Below, one piece after another: positions 1 to 23,604 of a stretch of 64,000 bases of DNA (position 1 is its first letter; each line of letters starts with the position of its first letter). The stretch comes from Desulfosporosinus acidiphilus SJ4 (lineage in GTDB: Bacteria; Bacillota; Desulfitobacteriia; Desulfitobacteriales; Desulfitobacteriaceae). The notes beneath the pieces are model-generated. The model was not told the origin of the DNA, ran no database searches, and was given only the letters and a program-made list of their open reading frames with translations. Both the position numbers and the translations under genes were made by a program. Where the stretch lies: contig NC_018068.1 of NCBI RefSeq assembly GCF_000255115.2, positions 3,753,977 through 3,817,976 on the forward strand, written 5' to 3'.

Positions 1-840
1 CAATATCGCCAACTCGGCAAAAGGAGAACGGAAATTAATATGCCCCCAGCCTTTCGCCAGTTCACTGCCCGGCAAGGCGCCAATAAACACTGTTTGGAGC
101 AAAATGTAGAGGATAATACCCAAACCGATGGCTAAGCCAATCGCCAAGGGAACATCTCGCTGGGGATTTTTGGCTTCTCCGGCCATAACGACTGCTTGGC
201 GGAAGCCAAAATATGAGAAAATAATTCCCCCAGAAGAAATAGCAGCAAAGACACCAGGCACACCAAAAGGAGCGAAGCCACCTGTTGCCATATTTCCGCT
301 GTGAAACTGAGTCAAAAGAACAATCACTGTTAAAGCAGGTGTTAAAAATTTCAAAGCCGTAATAATTGTATTGCTCTTGGCAAAAGCCTTAGCACTGAGG
401 TAATTGAGAAAGAAGAAAATTACGATTAAGCAGACTGCCAGTAACCAGCCCCCCGCTGTCATAACACCGGCAGAATTATTATAGAGAGATGGGATATAGT
501 AACTAGCATACTGGACAACCGCTTCAGCCTCAATGGCGATGACCGTAGAATCGGCAAGTATAAGTGCAAAAGCCATCATGTAACTAACGAAACTTCCATG
601 GGAATATTGAGAAAAACGTACGAGTCCTCCGGATTCGGGAAGCATTGCGCCCAGCTCAGCATACACCAAGGCAATAAACATAACAGCAACACCGCCGCCC
701 AGCCAGGCAAAAATTGCTGCCGGACCGGCAAGATTACCTGCCTTTTGTGCCGCATAAAGCCACCCGGAACCGATGATGGCCCCTAAACCCATCATCGTCA
801 AATCAAGCAAACCAAGATCCCTTTTAAGTCCTTGCTTCAT
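1..840 (-). CDS. APC-family amino acid permease, 3-prime end cut by the window
   Basis: An integral membrane transporter of the amino acid-polyamine-organocation superfamily. The visible 280 residues begin with a short cytoplasmic stretch and the first-helix motif GAIIGSGW, which in this family binds the backbone of the substrate, and then run through about seven hydrophobic segments. The reading frame stays open to base 1, so the C-terminal part lies outside the window. The start is the ATG at 838-840; an in-frame TAG at 844-846 rules out anything further upstream. The Shine-Dalgarno sequence is 41 bases upstream and separated from the ATG by a hairpin (see the separate entry). The GSGW form resembles aspartate/glutamate-type APC carriers, but the substrate cannot be told from sequence. 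No metabolic partner gene is next to it. Confidence 0.88.
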   Translation of the reverse strand, partial: MKQGLKRDLGLLDLTMMGLGAIIGSGWLYAAQKAGNLAGPAAIFAWLGGGVAVMFIALVYAELGAMLPESGGLVRFSQYSHGSFVSYMMAFALILADSTVIAIEAEAVVQYASYYIPSLYNNSAGVMTAGGWLLAVCLIVIFFFLNYLSAKAFAKSNTIITALKFLTPALTVIVLLTQFHSGNMATGGFAPFGVPGVFAAISSGGIIFSYFGFRQAVVMAGEAKNPQRDVPLAIGLAIGLGIILYILLQTVFIGALPGSELAKGWGHINFRSPFAELAIL

Positions 841-890
841 GCTCTACTTTGTCCTAATGTTCATTAGAACAAAGTAATCCACCTCCTTCT
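841..890 (-). promoter_or_regulatory. Ribosome binding site bridged by a 14-bp hairpin
   Basis: Reading the minus strand, AAGGAGGT (881-888) is followed by GGAT, a hairpin with arms TACTTTGTTCTAAT (863-876) and ATTAGGACAAAGTA (845-858) around a GAAC loop, then GAGC and the ATG. All 14 positions pair, one as G-U. Without the hairpin the spacing is 40 bases, far too long; with it folded, the flanks leave about 8 bases, the normal distance. There is no other Shine-Dalgarno sequence before the ATG. The same dyad could also be bound by a repressor as DNA. Confidence 0.7.
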
Positions 891-1366
891 CTAGTTTGAA
901 GATTCTTGAAAATAATAATAGACTGATAAAATCAGGAATTATTATTATTTTACTAATATATAGAGTTTATTCACCGGCATCACTTATTATATGACATGCA
1001 TTGACAAAAGGAAATTTGTTCGCAATTTCATTTTTTTATTGTTATACAAAAGAATTATTGATGTTGTATATTATACATACATTTTGGATATTTGCATTTT
1101 TGCTTAAAACTCTTACTCAAATCATAGGGTTAGTCACCACTTAAGGTTCATTTATTTAGTGCAAGCGATAGATAATATCTCACTTGCAGGAAATACGGCT
1201 CAACCCGAAGAATTACAAGATACCATGATAAAATTGCTTAATAATAAAGTCTTATAATGAAAAATTGACTGTATCCTTAAAATAGGAAAAGAAGGAAAAA
1301 TAACGATGCAAAAAGACCGTTCCTTCTGAGCAATTAAAGAAAAAGTAATTGGAGGAGGTATCCCAA
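891..1366. other. Divergent intergenic region, AT-rich
   Basis: This stretch separates the minus-strand permease from the plus-strand kinase and should hold both promoters. It is strongly AT-rich with several T and A tracts and a small palindrome TGTATA-T-TATACA at 1065-1077. A TATAAT-like element on the minus strand near 980-990 may serve the permease, but I could not place a convincing -35 box. No RNA gene was recognised. Confidence 0.5.
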
Positions 1367-16902: not shown

Positions 16903-16951
16903 ATGTCCGAAAGCGGACACACTTCAAGCAAATGTGTCCGCTTTCGGACAT
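16903..16951. promoter_or_regulatory. Paired activator sites forming a hairpin: UAS and probable terminator
   Basis: TGTCCGAAAGCGGACA at 16904-16919 and TGTCCGCTTTCGGACA at 16935-16950 are two 16-base dyads with centres 31 bases apart, three helical turns. They lie about 190-225 bases upstream of the predicted operon start, a normal place for enhancer sites of a sigma-54 activator. Being mirror copies, they also form one perfect 19-bp stem with an 11-base loop, and on the minus strand it is followed by ATTTTTG, just 33 bases behind the activator stop codon. It can thus also end the activator transcript. Confidence 0.8.
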
Positions 16952-23357: not shown

Positions 23358-23466
23358 CTCTCTCTCCCCCAATAAAGAAAACTTGGTTGGCGCCCGAAGA
23401 CACTGTCTTCGCACGAATTAACCTCCTTGCAGGCCCAGCGCAGGCAACTGTCTAGTTGCACGTATG

Positions 23467-23507
23467 CTAGAAGCAAGTATACAACCGAAGGTTATACTTG
23501 CTTCTAG
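23467..23507. other. Perfect 15-bp hairpin between the sensor kinase and comM-like genes
   Basis: CTAGAAGCAAGTATA (23467-23481) and its exact complement (23493-23507) flank an 11-base loop. Neither side has a T run, so it is not a classic intrinsic terminator. It lies 98 bases behind the kinase stop and 110 bases before the comM-like start, so it may be an operator, an RNA-processing stem or a Rho-independent terminator without tail. Confidence 0.6.
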
Positions 23508-23604
23508 TTTAAGAAAACTTGACCTGCTGCAGATTTCCGGCCTTCAAATCTAGAGAGTATAGGTAGATGTTCGCCTTATTTCTTATTATTCCTTCCAGAA
23601 AATA

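Follow-up and report, generated by a model that had tools for sequence, protein, structure and literature searches.

How could a ribosome reach the start codon of a gene whose Shine-Dalgarno (SD) sequence lies some 40 nt upstream, with a long hairpin filling the space between the two? The leader of an amino acid permease gene at the start of the 64-kb stretch of Desulfosporosinus acidiphilus DNA analysed here (the window) poses this question. Programs that predict start sites and expression levels assume that the spacer between SD and start codon is single-stranded and 5-10 nt long. An initial annotation proposed that the hairpin stays folded and brings the two elements together, forming a bridged, or split, ribosome binding site as in bacteriophage T4 gene 38, in this case on a bacterial chromosome. 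From the leader sequences and their predicted folds, we consider this the probable reading and give it a probability of roughly 0.7.

Anatomy of the permease leader

The features of the leader and the related leaders used for comparison are collected in Table 1. All letters and distances originally reported for the SD, the stem, its loop, the two flanks and the ATG hold on the minus strand. The stem is made of 14 consecutive pairs including one U-G, and a 15th pair, also U-G, is possible at its base. Measured from GAGG, the linear distance to the ATG is 41 nt; across the folded hairpin it is 7 nt if the basal U-G pair forms and 8-9 nt otherwise. The bridging hairpin was the dominant predicted fold (pair probabilities of 1.0, -15.1 kcal/mol). 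The folding model left the SD about half unpaired in the window leader and mostly paired in the leader of the paralogous permease gene of the same genome (L038).

Table 1 Features of the permease leader in the window and leaders of related genes
Feature	Position	Strand	Basis or remark
APC-superfamily amino acid permease gene, 526 aa	1..840, continues outside the window to G000:C3:3753236	-	PF13520 match
Permease start codon ATG	838..840	-	sequence
3' flank GAGC	841..844	-	sequence
TAG stop in frame with the ATG, two codons upstream	844..846	-	translation reads MNIRTK*SM
Hairpin 3' arm ATTAGGACAAAGTA	845..858	-	predicted fold and leader alignment
Hairpin loop GAAC	859..862	-	sequence and predicted fold
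Hairpin 5' arm TACTTTGTTCTAAT	863..876	-	predicted fold and leader alignment
5' flank GGAT, between SD and stem	877..880	-	sequence; GRATT in 6/6 leaders
Shine-Dalgarno AAGGAGGT	881..888	-	sequence; GAGG to ATG 41 nt
Candidate -10 box TATAAT (tentative)	986..991	-	aligns with TATAATA upstream of three homologous leaders; poor -35
L038, own-genome permease paralog	C3:4732689; gene start C3:4733528	-	
L003, Desulfosporosinus acididurans			
L004, Desulfosporosinus sp. FKB			
L005, Peptococcaceae bacterium CEB3			
L006, Acididesulfobacillus acetoxydans			

The candidate -10 box lies about 145 nt before the ATG and would put the 5' end of the transcript some 135 nt upstream of the start codon, clear of the hairpin. 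Because this box aligns between four leaders, the transcript probably, if tentatively, includes both the SD and the stem. A strict promoter and terminator scan of the minus strand returned nothing convincing and did not pick up the candidate box.

Other potential structures were seen around the bridging hairpin. An AU-rich second hairpin (window 910-950, minus strand; about 11 outer and 5 inner pairs) precedes the SD in this 5' leader. The L005 and L006 leaders carry an upstream inverted repeat, AATACAA...TTGTATT, which is not obviously homologous to it. A further hairpin was predicted within the first codons of the permease gene (window 806-834, minus strand; GCAAG...CUUGGUUUGC), so that the AUG is located between two hairpins. 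Since the hairpin at 806-834 is weakened in L005 and L006, it is probably a by-product of the coding sequence.

The permease gene and its start codon

The assignment of the start codon was supported from two sides. Translation of the window gene confirmed the in-frame TAG that had been taken to exclude an earlier start, and no in-frame start was found upstream in this gene. The ATG had also been described as the only usable one; in agreement with this, homologs whose SD is of the ordinary kind begin at the corresponding codon. In these homologs, which are about 50% identical (L039/L070, L046/L066, L044/L045 and L057), the SD precedes that codon by 6-12 nt. Such normally spaced SDs in the stem-less homologs also confirm that the protein begins at MKQ or MRQ.

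Comparison of the window gene with every relative gave dN/dS values of 0.035-0.07 with dS above 1.5, synonymous sites being saturated. Low dN/dS combined with saturated dS indicated that the permease in the window is functional and that the leaders compared are far diverged.

The hairpin is conserved in six diverged leaders

The comparison covered six leaders, drawn from five genomes that are closely related: the window gene, L038, L003, L004, L005 and L006. All six share the layout GAGGTGRATT, stem, ATG, and the GAGGTG core of the SD is invariant. The linear spacing from GAGG to ATG ranges from 39 to 41 nt, and the folded spacing is 7, 8, 8, 8, 10 and 10 nt. Within the D. acidiphilus genome, spacing between GGAGG and ATG peaks at 7 nt and is enriched at 6-11 nt, with no enrichment near 40 nt. 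The folded distance is therefore the one that fits, the linear distance falling where the genome shows background only. Stem pair probabilities were near 1 in the six leaders, except that the inner bases of the stem in L005 and L006 pair in a shifted register.

The sequence of the stem is constrained as well as its pairing. Between 17 and 22 of the 22 arm letters are kept, compared with a fourfold-site identity of 0.28-0.50 in the diverged pairs (p 1e-3 to 1e-11). In pairs whose fourfold-site identity has dropped to 28-44%, the arms are still 77-95% identical. The loop is less conserved than the arms, and the conserved half-sites are separated by a stretch of variable length (9, 10 or 12). Paired cells made up 97% of the stem alignment versus 41-51% in slid controls, and 7 of 11 stem pairs were invariant. 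One full compensatory pair was found, the window having A-U where the other leaders have G-C; three further stem pairs showed a one-sided change, via U-G or U-A. Formal covariation of the stem is thin, as the measure depends on one double change and was reached by 74 of 500 shuffles. Of the compensatory changes between constant flanks suggested earlier as a check on the stem, one pair was seen, and the flanks vary in part: the 5' flank is GRATT, and the 3' flank, GAGC in the window, is GACTGC, GGCTGT or GCGCGC elsewhere. For the bridging proposal itself, the retention of the stem in five relatives, the folded spacing within the preferred range of the genome and the variable loop length all count in its favour; its suggestion of a temperature switch was not supported (see below).

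Outside this group the hairpin was not found. It is absent from the permease homologs of about 50% identity. A protein search of 398 genomes of the phylum and plasmids recovered, outside the clade, only homologs at most 55% identical, and the upstream DNA inspected within the phylum contained no hairpin. Relatives that lack the stem and keep the 40-base distance, which would have spoken against bridging, were not found; the stem-less homologs are normally spaced.

Position, not length, makes the hairpin unusual

Several hairpins of at least 14 pairs were detected within the 64-kb window. Such long stems are therefore no rarity, and the hairpin by itself is weak evidence; its position is the rare feature. 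We scanned 1.26 Mb, about one quarter of the chromosome, for an SD followed first by a short-flanked hairpin of 9 or more pairs and then by a start codon opening an ORF of 100 or more codons. Two sites passed, the window leader (15 pairs) and the leader of the paralogous permease gene (12 pairs). In 106 dinucleotide shuffles of the same 1.26 Mb, analysed with no ORF filter, at least 15 pairs were obtained in one case and at least 12 pairs about 0.6 times per repeat.

Searches for the motif in 83 genomes of the class and with a covariance model in 46 genomes of the family recovered only the six permease leaders. Weak extra matches to the covariance model (E 0.03-0.9) were listed, none of which represents an SD-hairpin-start arrangement for a gene. 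An Rfam scan of the region gave sub-threshold chance matches only, none near the gathering score.

Three further sites were noted. One weak match to the covariance model (L082 1501-1551, G024:C31:188422-188472; E 0.77) resembles the permease leader in that a stem comes after a strong SD, AAAGGAGGTGTATTACTAGATTC-loop-GAATCTAATAAGC, with no start codon seen behind it. Within the window, a perfect 19-bp inverted repeat (ATGTCCGAAAGCGGACACA...) at 16903-16951 contains a shorter repeat, and an inverted repeat of 15-16 bp, CTAGAAGCAAGTATA...TATACTTGCTTCTAG, is located at 23466-23508.

A probable bridged ribosome binding site and its alternatives

In the proposed mechanism, the 30S subunit would pair with AAGGAGGT while the 14-bp hairpin directly behind the SD stays folded and protrudes as a looped-out element. 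The ATG, 41 nt away in the linear sequence, would then land 7-9 nt from the SD, in the P site, and the permease would be translated from the ATG at 840-838. By analogy with T4 genes 38 and 25 and with thrS, we infer that the ribosome can accommodate the folded stem. The computed cost of exposing both the SD and the AUG was 7-12 kcal/mol when the hairpin was kept, versus 24-31 kcal/mol when it was opened.

The letters of the stem are more constrained than bridging needs, and this is the main unexplained observation. Their near invariance suggests, without amounting to proof, that something else reads them. One extension of bridging would account for this: a protein, an RNA or a small molecule could bind the conserved stem sequence CUUUGU(C/U)C/GGACAAAG, with bridging as the default state, and unfolding or remodelling of the stem would move the SD out of reach, turning the permease off by opening. 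The 7 invariant pairs out of 11 despite saturated synonymous sites are consistent with such a factor, as is the fact that the leader accompanies the gene through differing neighbourhoods. However, no ligand, alternative pairing, Rfam family or other gene with the motif came to light in our searches, and the identity could partly reflect common descent. We regard this extension as unlikely.

The five relatives all carry a TTG in frame with the ATG inside their hairpin, which makes sequestration of a start codon the strongest rival to bridging. According to this explanation, a TTG located within the stem or at its base serves as the start in the relatives, the hairpin hides this codon, opening it switches translation on, and the window copy is a derived exception. 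No stops separate the TTG from the ATG in L038, L003 and L004 (4 nt after GAGG) or in L005 and L006 (9 nt after GAGG), and a spacing of 9 is normal for the genome. A spacing of 4, on the other hand, shows no enrichment of TTG in the genome, and the two groups of relatives would need different TTGs. The would-be N-terminal extensions LLCPQKSGQSDC, LLCSQITGQSGC and LSAKAGQSAR differ at many residues, whereas the arms are fixed at the nucleotide level. Reaching the in-frame TTG by opening the stem would cost 10-20 kcal/mol compared with 7-12 kcal/mol for bridging, and the cost is the higher one within each of the five leaders. Finally, the TAG makes the scheme impossible in the window gene, yet this gene is intact, under purifying selection and equipped with the longest stem. 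Sequestration therefore appears quite improbable.

The palindrome could also act as DNA, as an operator bound by a dimeric transcription factor, its place between SD and ATG being incidental. The near-perfect, sequence-conserved inverted repeat CTTTGTYC-n-GGACAAAG is what such a site would look like, but the distance between the half-sites varies (9, 10 or 12), the U-G pairs keep RNA pairing while breaking DNA symmetry, and the SD and the stem stand in a fixed register. Moreover, the pair of half-sites occurs nowhere else in the five leader genomes, other matches across the family (15) equalled those of a reversed-pattern control (15), and the loci have no regulator neighbour in common. We consider an operator very doubtful.

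Coupling to a leader peptide, in which a short ORF would be translated through the hairpin with reinitiation at the ATG, had some appeal for the window gene: its loop contains an ATG that opens the reading frame MNIRTK-stop, which ends 3 nt short of the permease ATG, and the sequence TTG-TTC-TAA begins 9 nt after GAGG. Neither ORF is present in the relatives, where frames, starts and stops vary while the stem is kept. As the frames are not conserved among the leaders, this highly improbable explanation was rejected.

An RNA thermosensor whose stem melts with temperature and thereby alters translation was suggested by the initial annotation, and a stable hairpin does adjoin the start codon. It is scarcely credible, given that both the SD and the AUG lie outside the stem in the window gene and that the stem is predicted to remain stable beyond 70 C, with over 90% of it still formed at 75 C in each of the six leaders.

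Comparison with known systems

Bridging has its closest precedents in phage T4. As summarised in a review (PMC3014915, covering the primary work of Nivinskas 1999 and of Malys and Nivinskas 2009), the distance is shortened from 22 nt to 5 in gene 38 and from 27 nt to 11 in gene 25, and translation drops when the structure is destabilised. On that account, the permease leader shares with both genes an SD too far from the AUG and an intervening hairpin that shortens the distance; it further resembles gene 25 in that the nearest relatives keep the structure and more distant ones lack it. Unlike these phage mRNAs, the permease leader belongs to a bacterial chromosome and would reduce 39-41 nt to 7-10, with a stem of 10-15 bp that is longer than the T4 structures described there and has conserved letters. 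The T4 sites were proven by mutation and probing, whereas the permease leader is known here from its sequence and predicted fold.

A second precedent concerns the tolerance of the ribosome for structure. PMC3936740, citing Sacerdot et al., reports that in E. coli thrS the ribosome takes a long folded hairpin in its binding site without unfolding it. In contrast to the permease leader, the thrS hairpin (-14 to -48) is described there as lying between a single-stranded site further upstream and the SD/AUG region, and the thrS SD is normally spaced. Hairpins of the E. coli rpsA leader were likewise proposed to unite separated SD-like parts, but this was later attributed to recognition of GGA motifs by S1 and not to SD pairing (PMC1805508). 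Hairpins that sequester ribosome binding sites, and RNA thermometers, resemble the permease leader in placing a stable hairpin at the translation start; they differ in that the SD or the AUG is within the stem, whereas here both are outside. Our search of openly accessible literature returned the T4 and thrS precedents; a chromosomal gene in which a hairpin separates the SD from the AUG did not turn up there, which is a weak absence given this scope.

If the bridged reading is true, bridging would be a stable cellular strategy, beyond a phage curiosity, in a conserved chromosomal gene family with its SD 40 nt away. The leaders would also offer a natural test of the size of structure that a 30S subunit can take between SD and AUG, and possibly a switch that is turned off by unfolding.

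Neighbourhood of the paralog

The surroundings of the paralogous permease gene were inspected by eye (L143, G000:C3:4720001-4740000). On its upstream side lies a gene that reads like a CoA-transferase, and on its downstream side are genes that look like those of a PAS/sigma-54-type regulator and of an amino acid dehydrogenase. This neighbourhood suggests a role in amino acid uptake for fermentation.
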